Of a stretch of 56,292 nt of DNA, positions 8,326-49,000 are shown piece by piece (the stretch's first letter is position 1; each line of letters opens with the position of its first letter). Origin of the DNA: Prochlorococcus sp. AG-402-L18 (lineage in GTDB: Bacteria; Cyanobacteriota; Cyanobacteriia; PCC-6307; Cyanobiaceae); assembly GCA_003216725.1 (NCBI GenBank), contig QCIL01000008.1:1-56292 (forward strand). Direction: 5' to 3'. Below the pieces are notes generated by a model. The model was given only the letters and a program-made list of their open reading frames with translations, had not been told where the DNA came from and ran no database searches. Made by a program: the position numbers and the translations under genes.

Positions 8326-8637
8326 TACAAAATTAAATTGAAGAAATGAAAATGAATTTAAATTTGGAAAATACTTTTGAAAGTATCCTATAATTTTTTG
8401 AATTTCAATAGTGCATTGATTTACAATACAGCCTAAAAGGTTATTAGGGGATAATTATTTGTTTTATGCAATAGAAAATTTTGAAAAAATGAAAATTTTG
8501 AAAATTATTTGATTAAAAATCAGACATTTATAAAAATTTTTTCAGATAGAGAATCTAAAAAATATCAATCTAAGTTCTTGCTATTAATGTATGATAAATT
8601 AATGGTTTAAGAACCTGTTGGTTCACCAAAACCCTTT
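8326..8637. other. Intergenic region upstream of accC and tRNA-Leu
   Basis: No credible coding frame. A 14-base direct repeat GAAAATTTTGAAAA occurs at 8474-8487 and 8491-8504. A perfect 5-bp hairpin GAACC-TGTT-GGTTC lies at 8611-8624, ending 13 bases before the tRNA. A TATGAT hexamer at 8590-8595 could be the -10 box of the tRNA promoter. The accC promoter must also lie here on the other strand. Confidence 0.45.
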
Positions 8638-39702: not shown

Positions 39703-40419
39703 TTATTTAATTTTTGATAACTGCCATCGCTTCTTTAAATAATTACAATAATCGCACTTTAATGATGCCATAGGTAATTGGTTAGATCTAAGTATATTAA
39801 CCGTTTCTAGAATTTTAGTCTCTACCCAAGATGTACTACACTCTAATTTGACAAAGTATGGCTCAAATTTAAGTTGATTATTGAAAAATTTTTCATTTTT
39901 TAAGCCATTAAAATAAAGTAAATATGCCTCATCTGCAACCTTAAAACCATTTTTTCTAAATAACCATTGGTACATTTCTAATTGCCTTTTGTATCCTTTT
40001 GCGTAATCAAATTTTTCAAAAGTCTCATGCCAGTCAAAATTATTTTTTGATGTTGATTTGACATCTACTACAATAAGCTCACCATTTTTTTTTTGCCATA
40101 CATCATCTACTGCTCCCCCAAAATCATACTTATATTTTGAGCATTTATATCTTATTCCAATAAAATTATTTCTCCAATCTTTTAAATTTTTATGTTTGAA
40201 AGGGACCGCATCTATACCGTTTTTAATAAATAAAGGATGAGGCTCTTGTTTATTACGATAATAATCAAACTCATTTTTACATAGATTATCTACAGCAATA
40301 TTTAAAGTAAAAGGTAATGATGGGGGTTTTATTTGATATTTTTTATCGAGAACACAACATCGTTGACAATTAAGAAATTTTTCAACAGTAGATCTACTTA
40401 ATTTCACAAAATCTTCCAT
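39703..40419 (-). CDS. PD-(D/E)XK nuclease, RecB/Cas4-like with probable Fe-S cluster
   Basis: A 238-aa protein. The nuclease core is visible as FGGAVDDVW, then VVDVKSTSK (the D-x-K motif), then QLEMYQWLF (motif with Gln and Tyr). Cysteines at 18, 21 and 22 and a C-terminal C-x2-C (LKCDYCNYL) are placed as in Cas4, AddB and Dna2, where four cysteines hold a [4Fe-4S] cluster that closes the domain. No cas genes are nearby. Probably a core-genome DNA-processing nuclease. Confidence 0.8.
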   Translation of the reverse strand: MEDFVKLSRSTVEKFLNCQRCCVLDKKYQIKPPSLPFTLNIAVDNLCKNEFDYYRNKQEPHPLFIKNGIDAVPFKHKNLKDWRNNFIGIRYKCSKYKYDFGGAVDDVWQKKNGELIVVDVKSTSKNNFDWHETFEKFDYAKGYKRQLEMYQWLFRKNGFKVADEAYLLYFNGLKNEKFFNNQLKFEPYFVKLECSTSWVETKILETVNILRSNQLPMASLKCDYCNYLKKRWQLSKIK

Positions 40420-40535
40420 ATTCTTTTAAATTTTTAATTTAGATCAATCCTTTTTAAATTGTTTTTAAATTCATTAAGTTTATATCTAATTCAAGATAAA
40501 TCACTCCAAATGTATAATTTAATAAAACTTAAAAA

Positions 40536-42101
40536 ATGACAGGCTTCGGGAAGGGATTTGAAAAGAAAAAACAAAATAAAAATCAAGAAAAAATAATTCA
40601 TCAAGCATTTTTATATCACTCTCAAGGAAATATAAAAGAAGCTTTCAAAAACTATAAATATTGTATCGAGTCAGGAGTTAATGATGACAGGATTTTTTCT
40701 AACTGTGGGCTAATCCTTAAAACTTTAGGCGATTTAAAACAAGCAGAAAAATTACTTCGCAAGGCAGTAGAAATTAATCCTAATTCCCATACTGCATATA
40801 CGAATCTTGGTACTATATTGAAAGATCTTAAAAGGTTTAGCGAAGCAGAAATATATCATCGAAAAGCAATTGAAATTAATCCTAATTTTAGTCTTGGTTA
40901 TACAAATCTTGGCAATACTTTAAGAGAATTAAAAAAATTCCAAGAGGCAGAAAAACTTCTTAGAAAAGCAATAAAACTTGACCCTAAATCAACTATTGCA
41001 TATGCAAATCTTGGAGATATATTAAAAAGCAAGGGGAGATTTGAAGAGGCCAAAATATTATTACTTAAAACAATTGAACTCAATCCAAAATTCGTTAAAG
41101 CATTCTACTCACTGTCAAAACTTCCATTCAATAGCGATGATATTAGTTGGCAAAAATATTTACTTTCAGAAGAAATTTTAATTAAAAAAAGTGAAAAAGA
41201 ACAAATTGACATTTTTTTTGCAAGATCAAACGTTCTACATAAAGAAAAAAAATATGAAGAAAGTGCTAAAAATTTACAAATTGCAAATCGACTAAAACTT
41301 AAAATTTATCCTTCCAATATTAATAAAATAATAAATAAATCAAATTTATTACTTAATAAAAGCAATCCTGAAAAAAATATTAATAACAATAAGAAATTAC
41401 CTACAAGTATTTTTATTGTAGGAATGCCTAGAAGTGGTACAACTTTAGTAGAATCGATTATTAGTCTAAATGAAGAAGTTCAAGATCTTGGGGAAATTAA
41501 TATATTTGAGAAAGCATATCATGAGAGCATAAAAAATCATCAAAAATTTTCTCTTACAGATTTATATATACAAAAAATAAAAAAATTAGGGATTGATTCG
41601 CGTATTACATCAAATAAATGGTTATATAATTATTTATACGTTGGAATTATTGCTAATCAAATTACAAATTCCAGAATTATACATTGTTTTAGAAATCCTT
41701 TAGATAATATTCTGTCTCTTACAAGAGCAAATTTTTCAACCGGAAATTCATATTCTTCCTCACTAGTAGATTGCGCAAAAATTTATATGAATCAAGAAAA
41801 AGTAATGAACATATATAAGAATAGATTCGGATCAAGTATTTATGAAATAAATTATGACATATTAGTTACTAAGACTGAAACAACAATTAAATCATTAATA
41901 AAATGGTTGGGATGGGAATGGGATGAGATTTATTTATGTCCTCATACAAATAACAGGGCAGTTTTAACTGCAAGTGATGTTCAAGTTCGATCTCCTATTA
42001 ATCCACAATCTATAGGAGGATGGAAAAACTACAAAGATATGCTCAAGCCTGCTATTTTAACATTATCTCAAGAAGATAAATATAAAGACATGGTTACTTA
42101 A
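40536..42101 (+). CDS. TPR-sulfotransferase fusion
   Basis: A 521-aa protein. About five TPR units occupy residues 25-200 (AVEINPNSHTAYTNLGTILKDL pattern). A sulfotransferase domain starts near residue 287 with the PAPS-binding loop FIVGMPRSGTTLVESII. IIHCFRNPLDNILSLTRANF is the 3'-phosphate-binding segment. Such TPR-sulfotransferases are frequent in Prochlorococcus and are thought to act on cell-surface sugars or peptides; the acceptor is unknown. Confidence 0.88.
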   Translation: MTGFGKGFEKKKQNKNQEKIIHQAFLYHSQGNIKEAFKNYKYCIESGVNDDRIFSNCGLILKTLGDLKQAEKLLRKAVEINPNSHTAYTNLGTILKDLKRFSEAEIYHRKAIEINPNFSLGYTNLGNTLRELKKFQEAEKLLRKAIKLDPKSTIAYANLGDILKSKGRFEEAKILLLKTIELNPKFVKAFYSLSKLPFNSDDISWQKYLLSEEILIKKSEKEQIDIFFARSNVLHKEKKYEESAKNLQIANRLKLKIYPSNINKIINKSNLLLNKSNPEKNINNNKKLPTSIFIVGMPRSGTTLVESIISLNEEVQDLGEINIFEKAYHESIKNHQKFSLTDLYIQKIKKLGIDSRITSNKWLYNYLYVGIIANQITNSRIIHCFRNPLDNILSLTRANFSTGNSYSSSLVDCAKIYMNQEKVMNIYKNRFGSSIYEINYDILVTKTETTIKSLIKWLGWEWDEIYLCPHTNNRAVLTASDVQVRSPINPQSIGGWKNYKDMLKPAILTLSQEDKYKDMVT

Positions 42102-42178
42102 AATTATCTCGTTTGAAACTTGTGTTTGAAATAGTAATTAAGGGAAAGTTTATTTAGTAAAGACTATAACTTAATAAC

Positions 42179-42394
42179 TCAATCACAATAAATTAAACAA
42201 TTTTGATTTGTTGGATGGTCTCTACATTCTTTATCCCAAAAATTTTGAAAATCAGTTGGACATTTCTCAAATTCTTTGGGAATTACATTAAGGTTTAAAC
42301 CTGCATAATTAAATGCAGTTAAGTATCTTGGAAGAATATTAAATTGATTAAGTAGTCTCATAAGACCTCCTAGATCTCTAACCATATTTTCCAT
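42179..42394 (-). CDS. 71-aa hypothetical, Cys-rich C terminus
   Basis: The small acidic protein MENMVRDLGGLMRLLNQFNI... ends FWDKECRDHPTNQNCLIYCD, with four Cys in all. It has no signal peptide and no recognised family. Codon use is ordinary. It sits alone between the sulfotransferase gene and the accessory island. Confidence 0.55.
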   Translation of the reverse strand: MENMVRDLGGLMRLLNQFNILPRYLTAFNYAGLNLNVIPKEFEKCPTDFQNFWDKECRDHPTNQNCLIYCD

Positions 42395-42850
42395 CTATTT
42401 ACTTGAAATTAATAGAGTATTAATACCCGATAAAAGTCTTTAATGTTCTTAAAAAATATCTAGACCCAATTAGTTGAAATATGAATAAAGTATAGAAAAA
42501 GTTATTTTCATAGGATTTCTCTATAAAGATATGATTTTAGCCTCACGTGAATCCCCCAAATCAAAAAAATTGGCCAGTAGATTGATAATATTCAACGTAA
42601 AAACTTCTTTAAACCCGCTTTTTTATATATCTAAACTTTGCCCACACAGACTATTCCCACCTTATAGTCAATAATATCTGCAATGCCAGAAACATATTCA
42701 TATTATAAGATTTGAGGGGGGAAAAGAGAGATCTCTTAATGCGCACCCTAAGTTTAACCCGTTTACTAAGCAGTATCTAAAGCAATGAACAAATATTATG
42801 AGTGTTTCATAGAGTTATCATAAAAATCCTAATTATTTTCCATCAAAAAT
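42395..42850. other. Long non-coding stretch at island edge, with possible decayed guaA 3'-end site
   Basis: No convincing gene. A 47-codon frame at 42531-42674 looks fortuitous. CACGTGAATCC at 42544-42554 nearly matches the CACGTGAAACC boundary repeats at 43666, 43677 and 47365. CTAAACTTTG at 42631, then ATTCCCAC...ATAGTC at 42653-42670, resembles the guaA downstream/3'-end block (CTAAACTATG, CTCCCAC...ATAGT) with a 12-base deletion. AGAGATCTCT near 42730 is a palindrome. A rhomboid terminator or an old insertion scar would fit. Confidence 0.4.
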
Positions 42851-43468
42851 TTAAATTAAAAATAATAAACATCCAACAATAAATCCACTTATATGACCCA
42901 ATAAACTAACTCCAGGTAAGAAAGAGAAAATCAATCCTATAAAGCAAATTGTTTTGGACATTTTTTGAATTTCACAATTTGATTTTAAACTAATTTTTTT
43001 ACCTAAAAAATAATTCTTTCCATAAAAAGAAGTTAATAATAAAAATCCAAATAAAGCATAAATTATTCCACTAAAACCTAAAGCAGCATAATTTGGATAT
43101 ATATTAAAAAAATACGATAAAATCTTTTCGTAAATCCAAATTACAAAAAAATTTAAAAAAGGACAAATTAAAAGAAATTTTATATAAAACAAACTGCTTT
43201 TACTTCCTAGCCTCATTAAAAAATTTCTAGTGATAATTATTCCCCCAAGATTACTTAATAAATGATTTAAATCTGCATGAACTAAAATTGATGTAAAAAT
43301 TCTATGAGGCTGATCACTAATTAATCTTGGGACGAAGTATAAAACTTCTTTATCGAAAACTTTAATTAAATCTGTAAAAATAAAAACTGATATTAGAACA
43401 GAAGCACTAACTACAAACTGCCAATCATATTTAGATATTGAATTATTAAAAAGCATAATTAGAAACAT
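42851..43468 (-). CDS. Rhomboid-family intramembrane serine protease
   Basis: A 205-aa protein with six hydrophobic segments. Rhomboid marks are HADLNHLLSNLGG (His64, His69, Asn73), the active Ser133 in ALGFSGIIYALFG, and the partner His192 in SLLGHISGFIVG. It cleaves substrate helices inside the membrane; substrate unknown. It lies between two guaA-like end sites, so it may be accessory cargo from an earlier insertion, or core. Confidence 0.83.
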   Translation of the reverse strand: MFLIMLFNNSISKYDWQFVVSASVLISVFIFTDLIKVFDKEVLYFVPRLISDQPHRIFTSILVHADLNHLLSNLGGIIITRNFLMRLGSKSSLFYIKFLLICPFLNFFVIWIYEKILSYFFNIYPNYAALGFSGIIYALFGFLLLTSFYGKNYFLGKKISLKSNCEIQKMSKTICFIGLIFSFLPGVSLLGHISGFIVGCLLFLI

Positions 43469-43533
43469 CTTTATTCTAAATTAAAACAATATTATATTTA
43501 ATAAAAAAAATGACCTTATAGGCGATTCCGTGG

Positions 43534-43595
43534 GAAACCAATTTTTTAAAACTATTCCTGGATTTATGACAAATCCATCATTCCCACTCAATAGT
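43534..43595 (-). repeat. Distal copy of the guaA 3' end and downstream flank
   Basis: Aligns without gaps over 62 bases to 47370-47431 with 47 identities, perfect at both ends (GAAACCAATT; CCACTCAATAGT). Read on the minus strand, 43578-43598 gives G-T-I-E-W-E-stop, exactly the GuaA C terminus. This is the expected signature of an attachment site left when an element integrates at the guaA 3' end. Confidence 0.8.
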
Positions 43596-43665
43596 CCCTC
43601 TAAAAGGGTTAATAAAAAAAGCAGTTACATCAATGGATCTGGGTTAATAATATCATAAATTTTGC

Positions 43666-43687
43666 CACGTGAAACCCACGTGAAACC
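43666..43687 (+). repeat. Two tandem 11-base repeats CACGTGAAACC
   Basis: Perfect tandem copies at 43666-43676 and 43677-43687. A third copy is at 47365-47375, overlapping the start of the guaA-proximal att-like repeat. A near match is at 42544. They may be recombinase or accessory-protein binding sites. Each contains the palindrome CACGTG. Confidence 0.7.
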
Positions 43688-43766
43688 AGCCCCTAATAAC
43701 TCAAATAATGAATTATTAAGAGCTGTAGCTACTGCAGGAAATATATTTTAGAAATTACATTTCATA

Positions 43767-44051
43767 CTAATCTAGTCTTTTTCTGATAGTTGAAAATTCG
43801 TCATCTGTTATTACATCATATTTTTTAAGAGTTATAAGAGCATGAATTTTTTTCAGACCGTCTATTGAATTAGATTCATATTCAGCATAAGAGGATTTGT
43901 CAAAACTAACTCTTGAATAAGGAGCAATATCAGTTGAATCAATTGCATGCCTAACTAAATAAGAAATTGATACTCCTGGTCCAGCTTTATCCTTTAGCTT
44001 TTTATGTTGATCTTTTCTAATTTGAACTGTTAGTCTACTAAGTTTTTCCAT
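43767..44051 (-). CDS. Ribbon-helix-helix DNA-binding protein with SHOCT-like C terminus
   Basis: 94 aa from the ATG at 44051. An upstream ATG at 44069 overlaps the previous gene and leaves no ribosome site, whereas GGGGGA sits about 10 bases before 44051. The N-terminal RLTVQIRKDQHKKLKDKAGPG followed by SISYLVRHAID is the beta-strand plus two helices of the CopG/Arc fold. The C-terminal GLKKIHALITLKKYDVITDDEFSTIRKRL matches the SHOCT short helical domain. Likely autorepressor or element regulator. Last gene of the island operon, about 170 bases from the guaA-end repeat. Confidence 0.78.
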   Translation of the reverse strand: MEKLSRLTVQIRKDQHKKLKDKAGPGVSISYLVRHAIDSTDIAPYSRVSFDKSSYAEYESNSIDGLKKIHALITLKKYDVITDDEFSTIRKRLD

Positions 44052-44052
44052 A

Positions 44053-44364
44053 TTAATTATTTCCCCCATGCTTGATCACTTTTATATTTCCATTTTTTTC
44101 AAGACTCTGTAGCCATTCCTGTATAGCATGATCTTGTTTATCCTCACTTAAATTTCTGAACTTTTCCTCAAGTATTAGAATCTGGTCCTGTAAACCTTTC
44201 ATCTGATGATTAAGAGCAAAAATTTTATCCTGCAAGCTTTTAACTTCATTATTATGTCCATAAACTTGATTTTTTAAATGAGATATTAGTTTTTTATTAT
44301 TAGCAGTATCAATAAAAAATAATTTTTTAAATTTTAAAAATTCTTCAGCTATAGATAAATTCAT
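44053..44364 (-). CDS. 103-aa coiled-coil protein in island operon
   Basis: Residues about 25-75 form a heptad coiled coil (VKSLQDKIFALNHQMKGLQD, ILILEEKFRNL), and a basic end follows. It has an unusually good ribosome binding site, AGGAGG 4 bases before the ATG. The 3' end nearly abuts the RHH gene. It could bridge the nuclease and DNA-binding protein; no family recognised. Confidence 0.65.
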   Translation of the reverse strand: MNLSIAEEFLKFKKLFFIDTANNKKLISHLKNQVYGHNNEVKSLQDKIFALNHQMKGLQDQILILEEKFRNLSEDKQDHAIQEWLQSLEKNGNIKVIKHGGNN

Positions 44365-44368
44365 TGTT

Positions 44369-44374
44369 CCTCCT
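44369..44374 (-). promoter_or_regulatory. Strong Shine-Dalgarno AGGAGG before the coiled-coil gene
   Basis: AGGAGGAACAATG on the minus strand. Consensus sites like this are scarce among the core genes around it, which suggests foreign origin or strong translation. Confidence 0.75.
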
Positions 44375-45095
44375 AAAATAAATCACTAACGTCAACAACC
44401 TTTTCGCTATTCTCTAAAACTGCATGCTCACAACCCGTTTTCCATTTGCAAAAACGACAGTTTTGATAATTAGCATTAGCAATAGGTAATTCATCATTAC
44501 CAGAAATTGAGAGGATTTCCCTAATTCTTTTTCTAGTTGGTTCTGGAAGAACTTCAGCTAATGCTTCAGGACCAGTAATAGTTAGAAATTCAATACTATT
44601 TTTATTAAATCCTCCTTCCTGATCATAATTTCCGTAACATAGTGCAAAACCAAATATTTCAGGCACAGGATTACCTTTTGCCCTTGCTACACCCTGTATC
44701 ATGTGGCCGTACAAACCAACCTGAATCCAATGCGAAAGCTTCTTTTTGCCGGATTTTGCGTCGCAAATCATCAACTGACCATTCGGAAATTTACAGATCG
44801 CATCTGGAACACCAAATAATGTATTTCCACATAAATTGACGGATTGTAATGGTAACTCCATATCAATTTCTGCATGCGGAAACTTATCCAATATGTTTAG
44901 TTTCAAATGATTCAAGATAGCTGTGTGCCTCAATTCCCATTTAGCGAGAAATTCGTTATCAACCGGTGCTTTATATCTTGTAGTCATCCAAAGGGACAAA
45001 TTACAAGAGTTTGCATAACTAGCAGCCTCTGCTACTGAACTAGGACCAAGGCATTCATAACCTTTGGCCTTTTTATTAAATTGTGAAAAATCCAT
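44373..45095 (-). CDS. PD-(D/E)XK nuclease, Cas4/RecB-like, in island operon
   Basis: A 240-aa protein. The core is GVPDAICKFPNG (Asp), then LMICDAKSGKKKL (D-x-K), then a Q-V-G-L-Y-G motif. A C-terminal C-x2-C-x5-C (NCRFCKWKTGCEHA), plus an N-terminal Cys (15 or 30), could bind a [4Fe-4S] cluster as in Cas4. The layout suggests a 5'-3' or single-strand DNA exonuclease. Base composition is visibly richer in G+C than neighbours (for example 44700-44820), a sign of transfer. There is no helicase or cas partner. It may act in element replication, recombination or defence. Confidence 0.75.
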   Translation of the reverse strand: MDFSQFNKKAKGYECLGPSSVAEAASYANSCNLSLWMTTRYKAPVDNEFLAKWELRHTAILNHLKLNILDKFPHAEIDMELPLQSVNLCGNTLFGVPDAICKFPNGQLMICDAKSGKKKLSHWIQVGLYGHMIQGVARAKGNPVPEIFGFALCYGNYDQEGGFNKNSIEFLTITGPEALAEVLPEPTRKRIREILSISGNDELPIANANYQNCRFCKWKTGCEHAVLENSEKVVDVSDLF

Positions 45096-45115
45096 TATTA
45101 GATGTTGTAAAAATT

Positions 45116-45598
45116 TTAATTTTTTTTATTTGGTAAAAATATTGCTATTGCTGCAGGGATCTCTCTCACGTTGCATTGCTCTGCAATACTCATTATTAGA
45201 TTTTCCAAATAGTCATCCCTCTGGCCTGGTTGGGAATTAATTACTGCACCAGGTTCAGTCACTGCATTAGCTAGATAACTATTAATTAGTTCTTGAACTT
45301 CAGATGATTGAAACTCTGGAGCTCTTAATCTTAAATAATTACTGCCAGGATCAACTTTTAAAGTTTCATCAATTAAAGATTTAGCTAAACCAGGAGTATA
45401 TTCATTCTCTAAATCAATTAGACAATTACCTAATGTATCTGAGATAGGATCATAAAATGAACCAAAGGTAAATTCACCATACTTACTACGTAAAATATTG
45501 GAATTGACTCCTTTTAATATTCCCTCCTCACAAAGAAGAAGGTTTCTATCAGAACCATTTAATTCTGAAGTTAGATTAAGTTTCTCTTGCTGACTCAA
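45116..45598 (-). CDS. 160-aa unknown protein, first gene of island operon
   Basis: An acidic soluble protein with no recognised domain (starts MSQQEKLNLTSELNGSDRNL; contains FTFGSFYDPISDTLGNCLID and EIPAAIAIFLPNKK). The start is TTG at 45598 with GGAGG at 45608-45612, ideally placed. It lies 20 bases before the nuclease gene, so likely cotranscribed and perhaps a nuclease partner. Confidence 0.65.
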   Translation of the reverse strand: MSQQEKLNLTSELNGSDRNLLLCEEGILKGVNSNILRSKYGEFTFGSFYDPISDTLGNCLIDLENEYTPGLAKSLIDETLKVDPGSNYLRLRAPEFQSSEVQELINSYLANAVTEPGAVINSQPGQRDDYLENLIMSIAEQCNVREIPAAIAIFLPNKKN

Positions 45599-45723
45599 TT
45601 TACTAATCCTCCATCTGATAGAAGGCTTCAGGATTGTGAACAGTCCTTGAAAAATAATTTTTAATTTTTAAAAATTCTTTAAAAGAAATGAATTTTTGAT
45701 TCTTTTCTTTGTCAGGCTCATCT

Positions 45724-45733
45724 GAGCATGCTC
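45724..45733. promoter_or_regulatory. Palindrome GAGCATGCTC, possible operator
   Basis: A perfect 10-base palindrome, 126 bases upstream of the minus-strand operon start. It is preceded by GCTCATCTGAGC (45716-45727), so GAGC/GCTC half-sites alternate three times. Clustered half-sites are typical of ribbon-helix-helix operators; the RHH protein of the same operon is a natural candidate ligand. Inference only. Confidence 0.4.
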
Positions 45734-45734
45734 T

Positions 45735-45815
45735 AATAGTCATGTAATACCTCGTAGGGTGTTATTTGCCTTCGGGCTAAGGCTTAGGGAGTCCTACCTC
45801 TCTGAGCCTTTTTCT
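45735..45815 (+). ncRNA. Candidate structured small RNA of the island
   Basis: The plus strand has a C(UUCG)G tetraloop hairpin GCC-TTCG-GGC (45768-45777) directly before a 10-bp stem with T run. GTAGG (45754-45758) can pair with CCTAC (45793-45797) in the loop of that stem, forming a pseudoknot. No plus-strand gene precedes it, so the terminator has no other obvious client. The 5' end is unknown and may lie up to about 45600. Confidence 0.5.
45780..45813 (+). terminator. Rho-independent terminator
   Basis: AGGCTTAGGG (45780-45789) pairs with CTCTGAGCCT (45800-45809), including two G-U pairs, around a 10-base loop; five T residues end at 45813. The T run is only on the plus strand, which fixes direction. 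Confidence 0.8.
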
Positions 45816-46007
45816 ATTGAAGGGTATTAAAAATATAGCAAACAATTTATTTTAAAGTCTAGAGAATTTATACTTTATACACTTTGTAACATAGACCAAT
45901 TTATAAAGTTATAACTATCTTTACAAAATTAATTAAATTTTTTTAAAATAAATATTCAAAACTTATTTTATGAAATATAATTAATTTATAATCAAATATA
46001 ATTTTTA

Positions 46008-47342
46008 ATGTCTACATTTTCAGAAATTATAGTCAGAAATTTTGATGAAAAAGATATATCTTTAGCTATAGAAAAATTACAAGTATGCGAAGATCTCATC
46101 TCTGAAGATTTAGTAGATTGCGTGGTTCTATATGAGAGTACTTCCATAAGAAACAGAAATAATATGAAAGAAGTTGCATCTAGACGTTTATCTGGAATGC
46201 TTAATCAAATTGATAATTCTGATGGCTGGAAAATATTTATTCAATTTTTTGATATTCGAACTAGTGAAAATGAGTTTCCAAAATTAGCAATGGTTATGCC
46301 GTTACTTGATACTCCTGTTAAACCAGCTTTACCATGGAGTTTGCCTGAGCGTTGCAACATTTTTACAGAAAAAAGAGAAGATTTATTATTAAACCCAGAA
46401 AATTACAGTAACGGTATAGCTTTTGAAGAATTTATTGGTGAGATTATTACCTTTGATCCAGTAGTTGCTGAAACTATAAAACGAATGCAAATGGGAGTGC
46501 ACAGAAATAAAGCGATAATTCATTTACTAATGAATCTTGGACTAATGGAGGCTCTTAATTTAGAGCCAAAACTAAGATCTTATAATATTGATCAAACAAT
46601 AAAAGAAGAAAAAGCATACCCAACAATTAATGGAGATTCATTAAAGGAATACGTAAAAAAAATCTTTTTAAAACACTATCTTAAAGAAAAAGAAAATGTA
46701 GAACGTCAAAAAATTTTTCCTGAAATAAAAGAAATAAAAATGAGTTCTTGGAATAATCTTCTTAGAGCTGCGGAGAAATTAAATAACTCTATTTTGAAAG
46801 TTAAAGAAAAATATTTAAACTCAATTACTACCCATCAATTTAGTGAAAAGCTGCAAGTATTTGATGCAATAAGAAATTTTTTAAAGTTAAATAAATTAGA
46901 TGAAGAAACTCCATTATCAATTCCTGAACTGCAATCAAAATATAAGGCTTATGGATTAGTTAAAAAAATATCTAAAGGACCAGGAATGGCAAGTGTAAAA
47001 AAAGATTATTTAGCTTGGTTAACTAGAGAAAAAATGAAAGAAAATCAGAAACTTGACCCTTATAACAAAAAAATTTCAATAGAAGAATTAAAGGAATCAT
47101 TGGGAGTTAAAATACAAGATATCGAAGATGCAATTTCCTTCCTGAAGATTGAATTGCCAGAGGAAGATCCACGTCTTAAATTTGAAGATGAATATAAAAT
47201 TAGAACATATTTATTTGATAAGTTTAATCCTTACAAAATTCAATCTGCTAGATCAAGAGCATCAAATAGCGAAAATGCTTCTGCCAAGAAGTTAAGAAGT
47301 AATAGAGATAAACTAAAGCTTAGTAAAGAGAATTCAAAATAA
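46008..47342 (+). CDS. 444-aa protein of unknown family in the integrase position of the guaA island
   Basis: A soluble, charged protein. The N-terminal 150 residues are mixed alpha/beta (SEIIVRNFDEKDISLAIEKL, WKIFIQFFDIRTSENEFPKL). The middle is helical (FDPVVAETIKRMQMGVHRNKAIIHLL). Towards the C terminus ISIEELKESLGVKIQDIEDAISFL looks like a helix-turn-helix, and a basic tail follows. I do not see the R...HxxR...Y set of tyrosine recombinases, nor serine recombinase or DDE motifs. It ends 72 bases from the guaA stop, convergent, where guaA islands normally encode their integrase, so a DNA-handling role is plausible but unproven. Confidence 0.7.
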   Translation: MSTFSEIIVRNFDEKDISLAIEKLQVCEDLISEDLVDCVVLYESTSIRNRNNMKEVASRRLSGMLNQIDNSDGWKIFIQFFDIRTSENEFPKLAMVMPLLDTPVKPALPWSLPERCNIFTEKREDLLLNPENYSNGIAFEEFIGEIITFDPVVAETIKRMQMGVHRNKAIIHLLMNLGLMEALNLEPKLRSYNIDQTIKEEKAYPTINGDSLKEYVKKIFLKHYLKEKENVERQKIFPEIKEIKMSSWNNLLRAAEKLNNSILKVKEKYLNSITTHQFSEKLQVFDAIRNFLKLNKLDEETPLSIPELQSKYKAYGLVKKISKGPGMASVKKDYLAWLTREKMKENQKLDPYNKKISIEELKESLGVKIQDIEDAISFLKIELPEEDPRLKFEDEYKIRTYLFDKFNPYKIQSARSRASNSENASAKKLRSNRDKLKLSKENSK

Positions 47343-47369
47343 AAAATTTTTCCCAACTAACAGCCACGT

Positions 47370-47431
47370 GAAACCAATTTTTCTAAACTATGACTAGGTT
47401 TATAATCTAATTGTCACTCCCACTCAATAGT
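47370..47431 (-). repeat. Proximal copy of guaA 3' end and flank (att-like)
   Basis: Overlaps the last 18 bases of guaA and 44 bases beyond. It matches 43534-43595 at 47 of 62 positions without gaps. One CACGTGAAACC repeat overlaps its outer edge (47365-47375). Confidence 0.8.
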
Positions 47432-49000
47432 TCCGGGGGGCTTACTAGTAATATCGAAAACTACTCTATTAACCTCAGTAACTTCATTAACTATTCTATT
47501 AGATATCCTTTCTAGGATTTCATAAGGAATTCTTGACCAATCTGCTGTCATTCCATCTTCACTAGAGACACATCTCAAAACAATTGGCCAAGAATAAGTT
47601 CTTTTATCTCCCATAACACCTACAGTCTTAACAGGAAGTAAAACTGCAAATGCTTGCCAAATATCATTATAAAGACCGGCTTTTTTTATTTCATCTCTCA
47701 CTATCCAATCTGCATCTCTCAAGCAATTTAGTTTTTCAAGAGAAACTTCACCTAAAATTCTTATTGCCAAACCTGGGCCCGGAAATGGATGCCTTTTAAT
47801 TATTTCATCAGGCAATCCAAGATTCTTACCAAGTTCTCTAACTTCATCTTTAAAGAGTTTTCTAAGAGGTTCAACTAGTTTAAATTGCAAATCTTTTGGT
47901 AACCCTCCAACATTATGATGACTTTTAATTTTTACAGCAATCCTTTCTCCTGTATTTGGATCAATATTAGTTCCAGCACTCTCAATAACATCTGGATAAA
48001 GCGTACCTTGAGCTAAATACTGAAAAGGACCAAGTCTATTACTCTCCTCTTCAAAAACTTTAATAAATTCTCCGCCAATAATCTTTCGCTTTAATTCAGG
48101 ATCAGTTACACCCTTTAATTTACTAAGAAATCTTTCCCTAGCATTTATATATTCAACTTTAATATGAAATTTCTTATCAAAAAATTTCATTAAAAATTCA
48201 GGTTCACCTTTTCTCATAAATCCTTGATCAATAAACATACATGTAAGCTTATTGCCAATTGCCTTATAAAGAAGAAAAGCAAGTGTAGAAGAATCCACTC
48301 CACCTGAGAGCGCAAGTAATACCTTCTTTGAACCAACTTGGTCCCTAATCCTTGGTATCGCCTCTTCTAAAAATTTTTCAGTTGTCCAATCAGGGTTACA
48401 ATTAGCAATTGAATAAACAAAGTTTTTAATAATAGTCATCCCAAACTCTGAATGTATAACTTCGGGATGAAATTGAACGCCAAATAATTTTTTTTCTTGA
48501 TGTGATATCGCAGCATGTAATGTATTTTCAGTATGAGCAATTTTTAAAAAGCCATGGGGTAATTTAACAATCGAATCACCATGACTCATCCACATAATTG
48601 ATTGATCCTTAACTTCTGATAATAAGTCACTTTGTGAGTCAATAGTGATTGGCGCTCTCCCATATTCGCCTTTATTTTTTGCACGAGTAACAGTTCCACC
48701 TAATTCTTTTACCATTAATTGCATGCCATAACATATCCCAAGGATTGGGATACCTAATCTAAAAATTTGTTCATCACATGTTGGGGCATTTTCTTCATAT
48801 ACAGAATTTGGTCCTCCGCTCAAAACAATACCCTGAGGATTAATGTCTTGAATATCTTGAATTCCAATCAGGTTACTAACTACAAGAGAAAAAACATTCG
48901 TTTCTCTTATTCTTCTAGCGATTAATTCTGAATATTGAGATCCAAAATCTAATATTAAAATTGAAGGATCTCTTTCTTTTTTTAATAAATTTTGACTCAT
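47414..49000 (-). CDS. guaA: GMP synthase (glutamine-hydrolysing)
   Basis: Converts XMP to GMP. A 528-aa protein with the glutamine amidotransferase domain first (Cys90 in [10 protein letters not shown], His in [13 protein letters not shown]). Then comes the ATP-pyrophosphatase P-loop [14 protein letters not shown] near residue 230, and the dimerisation domain ending KPPGTIEWE. The gene is intact; its 3' end is duplicated at 43.6 kb as an island attachment scar. Confidence 0.98.

Follow-up and report, generated by a model that had tools for sequence, protein, structure and literature searches.

Known gene-end islands and the guaA locus of Prochlorococcus

Several described systems resemble the locus considered here, a gene cassette at the 3' end of guaA in Prochlorococcus sp. 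AG-402-L18. The cassette lies within a stretch of 56,292 nucleotides (positions 1 to 56,292 of contig QCIL01000008.1, assembly GCA_003216725.1), called the window below. (Statements about the cited papers refer to excerpts of their text; G numbers denote genomes of the genus and L numbers individual sequences.) The integrase of the genomic island GIsul2, which acts at guaA, has been shown experimentally to move the CR2-sul2 unit (PMC9376610). The likeness lies in the target, the guaA 3' end, and in the use of one integrase to move both its own island and an inner unit through shared attachment (att) cores; however, these elements occur in Proteobacteria and carry other genes, and element-specific repeat doublets are not described in the excerpted text (PMC9376610). 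Movement in trans has been proposed for Dehalococcoides islands at ssrA that have no integration module. The genomic islands and cis-mobilizable elements at ssrA also lie in tandem between gene-end direct repeats, and 15 lack an integration module, but they depend on the serine recombinase DsiB and a different target, ssrA (PMC3146451). Finally, picocyanobacterial elements with a tyrosine integrase and a small serine recombinase have been reported at tRNA-Phe and tRNA-Cys (PMC10187409); a small serine recombinase is also found in the guaA elements of G009, G027, G214 and G158, which differ in their site.

Two other assignments were considered, and a defining feature of each was not found here. 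Phage satellites (PICI, PICMI, VEIME) are recognised by an integrase of their own, and none was found here with Pfam, PHROGs or a search of the host genome. Tycheposons, reportedly described by Hackl and co-workers in 2023, are said to be Prochlorococcus elements that encode a tyrosine recombinase, carry cargo and target tRNA genes. The host and the existence of tyrosine-recombinase elements with cargo are common to both systems, but the tRNA target and the recombinase are both missing from the window cassette: it sits at guaA, the only tRNA or tmRNA genes of the window are at 8,637 and 17,550, and the hallmark tyrosine recombinase was not found in element or host genome with PF00589. Literature searches on Prochlorococcus guaA islands, guaA tandem islands, tyrosine recombinases of Prochlorococcus islands and tycheposons turned up nothing on the array described below, the original tycheposon paper lying outside the coverage.

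Our reading, to which we assign a probability of roughly 0.7, is that 43,578-47,434 is an integrase-less cassette in a guaA array, likely moved in trans by the tyrosine recombinase of other elements.

A tandem array at the 3' end of guaA

The host gene guaA (47414-49000, minus strand; 528 aa; PF00117, PF00958) provides the attachment site at its 3' end. Duplicated guaA ends around six features had been reported in a preliminary description made from the sequence alone, and both observations are borne out. Positions 43534-43595 and 47370-47431 agree without gaps at 47 of 62 bases, while the right copy, compared with both strands of the whole window, finds no other place better than 35 of 62; both copies contain the minus-strand codons G-T-I-E-W-E-stop, and six open frames lie between them. 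A repeat search puts this pair (65 nt, 75%) at the head of the direct repeats between 42.0 and 49.1 kb. The similarity runs about 50 bases beyond the guaA stop codon, and this post-stop part is the element end seen at many guaA inserts. A profile of the element end matches exactly two places in the window, 47434-47360 (E 3e-18) and 43598-43525 (E 3.9e-16), and none besides these in the host's own genome. Two cores flank the cassette as att copies of the site that integrase-bearing relatives use at guaA.

The features of the cassette ends all read on the minus strand. The guaA-proximal core, GGAACTATTGAGTGGGAGTGA (47414-47434), is the true guaA end and falls within the first profile match. It is followed by the element inner end (..ATAAACCTAGTCATAGTTTAGAAAAATT..; 47376-47413), which sequence comparison shows to be common to other guaA inserts, and by a single GGTTTCACGTGG unit (47364-47375), a predicted proximal arm-type site. 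At the distal end lies a doublet with an 11-bp period, GGTTTCACGTGGGTTTCACGTGG (43665-43687), whose units are predicted arm-type sites; copies of CCACGTGAAACC are thus present near both cassette ends, as a tandem pair distally and singly at 47364-47375. Beyond the doublet is the second core, GGGACTATTGAGTGGGAATGA (43578-43598), at the junction of the first and second cassettes. Both this core and the sequence after it, CATAAATCCAGGAATAGTTTTAAAAAATTGGTTTCCCACGG (43525-43577), belong to the second profile match, and the latter is also identified by alignment as the inner end of a second element.

The picture of a single element bracketed by two gene ends, as first proposed, has to be revised. 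A second, decayed element begins in the left repeat, so that an intact and a decayed cassette stand in tandem as an array at about 40,420-47,434. The decayed element (40420-43577) contains a rhomboid gene (42851-43468, minus strand), a 71-aa open reading frame (42179-42394, minus strand) and a gene for a tetratricopeptide repeat (TPR)-sulfotransferase (40536-42101, plus strand). Neither the profile nor the repeat search of the window revealed a recognisable distal (third) core before the flanking core gene, which ends the array at 40,419. The product of this gene (39703-40419, minus strand; 238 aa) matches the flank protein of Prochlorococcus AH-736-L23 (G213; 237 aa) at 76%, and at empty sites the gene lies directly 3' of guaA.

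Occupancy of the guaA site in relatives

The site was surveyed in 36 relatives of the same genus, of which 30 had a guaA 3' end that was fetched and six had none in the assembly. It is empty in eight (G001, G004, G010, G015, G017, G020, G024, G033) and occupied in 22. At empty sites the conserved flank gene follows within 76 bp of the guaA stop (G020 is counted here, although its listed flank frame begins upstream of that stop). In 16 relatives the flank gene lies 212-11,838 bp after guaA, only 212-519 bp in five of these, and in the remaining six occupied cases the fetched stretch stops before it, at a contig end in five and at a 16-kb cut in G025. AH-736-L23, equated with G213 on an identical W protein, carries the same six genes as the window at an otherwise clean guaA site, and an alignment of its distal core and flank to the empty G017 site covers their whole length (169 columns, 88.8%). 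Insertion is thus specific to the end of guaA. The proposed insertion at the 3' end of guaA is thus upheld by the eight empty sites and by AH-736-L23; had such a comparison across Prochlorococcus found no empty site anywhere, it would have counted against it.

In many genomes, guaA inserts of different cargo and many lengths begin at the same base. When the sequences downstream of guaA were aligned and grouped (the grouping is our own), a type 1 inner end, close to ATAAACCnAGTtATAGnctnAAAAAnTTGGTTTC, was found after the guaA stop in 16 of the 22 occupied relatives, with types 2 and 3 in four and two. The type 1 profile also detects head-to-tail copies within inserts, as many as six in G025. 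Three sequences have tandem guaA-like ends after guaA at a spacing of only 140-148 bp (L051 at 657/797, in guaA-oriented positions; L053 at 675/815; L050 at 691/839); these resemble empty cassettes or scars.

Matching repeat doublets at element ends

Many guaA elements have repeat doublets with an 11-bp period near both ends, for example GGTTTCCCTCA twice or GGTTTCACGTG twice, placed some 40 bp beyond the stop codon of guaA and, at the other end, some 80-100 bp short of the distal core. An exact doublet is not present in every element. As background, the eight empty-site regions (126 kb) contain seven such doublets. For 13 elements with two scored ends each, selected independently of the doublet, the two ends of one element match at 15.0 of 18 positions on average versus 12.9 between elements, a difference reached in 0 of 20,000 permutations; scores of at least 16 occur in 6 of 13 own comparisons versus 15 of 156 cross comparisons. 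In a larger set of 37 elements the values are 15.6 and 13.7 (again 0 of 20,000), the cross-matches being inflated because the set includes 20 regions chosen by the TTTCACGTG pattern.

The window cassette is of this TTTCACGTG type. Its distal doublet is complete, and the exact doublet recurs in AH-736-L23 and G279. With up to one mismatch the type is found at 46 places in 25 of 266 genomes of the genus; the reversed pattern does not occur in these 266 genomes. The 20 regions fetched for the pattern all contain the element-end profile, and ten larger proteins from them include matches to restriction-methylase, helicase-phospholipase D (PLD), HNH, sulfotransferase, 5-enolpyruvylshikimate-3-phosphate (EPSP)-synthase and carbamoyltransferase families. 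An MreB-like protein recurs as guaA-cassette cargo, in L045 (PF06723) and, judged by eye from similar frames, in L216, L218, L219, L221 and L227; L219 also encodes an EPSP-synthase family protein. Elsewhere, three TTTCACGYG units stand in tandem with an 11-bp period on an IMG/VR contig rich in G+C (L354:590-632), and doublets of period 11 or 12 lie on both sides of tyrosine recombinase genes (L357:3327 and 11178; L359:566 and 10921). The last two cases suggest that an end architecture with flanking doublets is general beyond guaA.

Candidate helper recombinases

In other genomes, guaA elements have the same layout together with a tyrosine recombinase gene adjoining guaA. A near full-length recombinase of this guaA type (E <= 1e-169) is present in five of the 266 genomes (G021, G027, G009, G214, G158), adjoins guaA in each, and scores above the PF00589 cut-off in all five. 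(The G021 element differs from the other four in having no small serine recombinase.) Weaker long matches in G170 and G177 lie away from guaA in the stretches fetched, and the other profile matches, among those listed, mostly fall at one end of a conserved 386-395-aa frame.

The 8.3-kb element of G214 has TTTCCCGTG doublets near both ends. This doublet occurs in six of the 266 genomes, each time beside an element-end profile match, and the recombinase accompanies it only in G214; the same doublets thus bound elements in five genomes without a guaA-type recombinase. Among the recombinases themselves, those of G021 and G027, which share a doublet type, are 64% identical in the first 100 columns versus 54% overall. 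The pairs among G009, G214 and G158, whose doublet types differ, are 36-57% identical in that part versus 58-63% overall, and the six remaining pairs are low in both (36-44% and 35-41%). These five sequences give a hint, and only that, that N-terminal likeness may track doublet type.

The cassette itself is consistent with the earlier statement that the element encodes no recognisable recombinase: none of its six genes is recognisable as a recombinase or transfer gene by Pfam and PHROGs or, for five of them, by NCBIfam and PADLOC (the 46-aa protein S46 was scanned with the first two only). In addition, the host genome, which is 85% complete, has no PF00589 or PF00239 match.

Cargo of the cassette and spread of its nuclease module

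Five of the six frames between the repeats are on the minus strand and one, of 444 aa, is on the plus strand. (Percentages below refer to the counterparts in G213 and G279.) From the distal end, RHH100 (43767-44069, minus; 90% and 58%) is a possible ribbon-helix-helix protein with a weak Arc-like match (E 0.055), and CC103 (44053-44364, minus; 87% and 57%) is coiled-coil-like, with weak matches of that type. NUC240 (44373-45095, minus) gives the sole clear Pfam match within the element, to a PD-(D/E)XK nuclease (PF12705, E 1.2e-6). PHROGs, NCBIfam and PADLOC describe it as exonuclease- or Cas4-like, the other scanned window proteins having weak matches; its score against TIGR00372 (cas4), E 1.2e-5, is below the family cut-off. 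Residues D98, D112, K114, Y129, C213, C216 and C222 are invariant among 15 relatives and Q125 nearly so. We take these to be the active-site and iron-sulphur residues. X160 (45116-45598, minus; 160 aa; 70% and 63%) has no convincing family match, and S46 (45603-45743, minus) is a small module protein (73% over 26 aa and 76% over 46 aa).

The plus-strand protein, W444 or W (46008-47342), has no clear fold match. It has a long helical N-terminal part (second model: mean predicted local distance difference test score, pLDDT, 81; predicted template modelling score, pTM, 0.55), and its structure models gave no fold match at E <= 0.001. Residues 355-405 resemble the DNA-binding domain of pSK1 Par and, weakly, the IF-2 N-terminal domain. 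The public record for the AH-736-L23 homologue (P0014; L002:7968-9200) carries the IF-2 name, which reflects its C-terminal domain only. When five window proteins and two W relatives were scanned with PADLOC, the nuclease matched Cas4 models (best E 3.2e-6), the G279 W matched PDC-S57 (E 4.2e-6), and the remaining hits were weak. Our best guess, held with low confidence, is that the six genes form an anti-phage defence or element-maintenance module.

The Cas4-like nuclease has matches in 14 of the 266 genomes. One of these is the host, whose window was read again, and the regions of the other 13 were fetched. A W-like frame stands in the expected place in ten of the 14 by BLAST (that of G258 is a contig-end fragment) and in G263 by position and alignment. 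The G158 frame in this place does not align as W, the G237 stretch starts at the nuclease, and G274 shows no such frame. Three modules (window, G213, G279) lie at guaA with the same six genes in the same order. Others lie beside an EVE-type gene (G195, G164, G238) or near purK (G224), both genes being named by eye from protein starts. Eleven loci lie outside guaA. Doublets match between the two ends in five of them (G195, G215, G158, G164, G238; for G164 and G238 this counts sequence beside the EVE-type gene) and G224 and G165 have one doublet; the scan, which covered ten of the eleven and excluded G274, found none in G263, G258 and G237. W-like matches also occur in genomes with no nuclease match (G230:C7:264-938, G192:C2:63181-63828). 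The 5' side of the EVE-type gene (L150-L167, L078, L079, L086) resembles another hotspot, with a shared inner end of its own, where 11-bp-period doublets differ between genomes and successive doublets in G238 are of different type.

How the cassette may have moved

A site-specific cassette moved in trans is the simplest account of these data, as with CR2-sul2 (PMC9376610) and as proposed for the ssrA islands (PMC3146451). The 21-bp guaA end would be the crossover core, and the 11-bp-period repeats would be arm-type sites read by the N-terminal domain of the recombinase. Elements of one arm type would then be carried by whichever recombinase reads that type, and the tyrosine recombinase that excises and inserts the window cassette would come from other guaA elements. 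The preliminary description had left the choice between such a satellite and an element using an unknown enzyme; the first is the better supported of the two, and the second is retained as a slim prospect. Several observations weigh against movement in trans. Neither a circular form nor transfer of the cassette has been observed, and searches of IMG/VR and of phage records found neither the nuclease nor W. No tyrosine recombinase was found in an element of the TTTCACGTG type, and none of the 20 pattern-fetched regions matches the guaA-recombinase profile. Seven of the 13 elements score 15 or less for their own ends; the recombinase-bearing G021 and G009 score 11 and 13, AH-736-L23 scores 13 and the window 15. 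A good many of the occupied sites lack an exact proximal doublet. The window, AH-736-L23 and G279 have one proximal unit and no proximal doublet, so that these three guaA W-cassettes could be fixed remnants. Such a remnant, immobile after losing its recombinase or being left behind, is an unlikely alternative, though the strongest of the rivals: the single proximal unit, the divergence of the att copies to 47/62 and the missing distal core of the neighbouring element all fit it, but all six frames are open, eight of 30 relatives are empty, and the six genes keep their order at guaA in AH-736-L23 and G279, with nucleases 84-85% identical to that of the window and the exact distal doublet in all three.

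The remaining rivals dispense with the tyrosine recombinase. The W-nuclease module could itself be the integration machinery, with W reading the element-specific terminal doublets; W and the Cas4-like nuclease would then insert elements at guaA, beside the EVE-type gene or near purK as a recombinase-free class, and short end repeats would serve as a code that separates the many elements housed at one chromosomal site. In the 14 genomes with the nuclease, no PF00589 or PF00239 match (E <= 0.001) falls within the module loci as fetched, modules occupy several loci, five of the eleven outside guaA having doublets that match at the two ends, and W, where present, sits at the boundary adjoining the core gene, part of its family having a Par-like DNA-binding domain. 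We nevertheless consider this improbable: identity to the window's W is as low as 38% in G213 and 25% in G279 (nucleases 85% and 84%), though the three share one doublet type, no open reading frame in the 20 TTTCACGTG-pattern regions matches W, W has no fold match at E <= 0.001, and the C-terminal domain is absent from several W proteins. If the array grew not site-specifically but through homologous recombination at the guaA-end sequences that its members share, this could draw on the short homology of the shared 75-bp ends and would suit the mosaic genes (W 38%, nuclease 85%, window versus G213). It is very improbable, however, given that cargo of many lengths begins at the same base in many genomes, that matching repeats lie near both element ends and that recombinase-bearing members exist.

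Implications for Prochlorococcus

If movement in trans is correct, guaA in Prochlorococcus would be a docking site at which recombinase-bearing elements and recombinase-less cassettes share a core and differ in their arm repeats, and a Cas4-like nuclease module would be recurrent among the cargo. The repeats would amount to a readable code that links helpers to passengers. One chromosomal site could in this way collect many small gene packages, and the route by which restriction-modification, surface-modification and metabolic genes spread would become open to testing.

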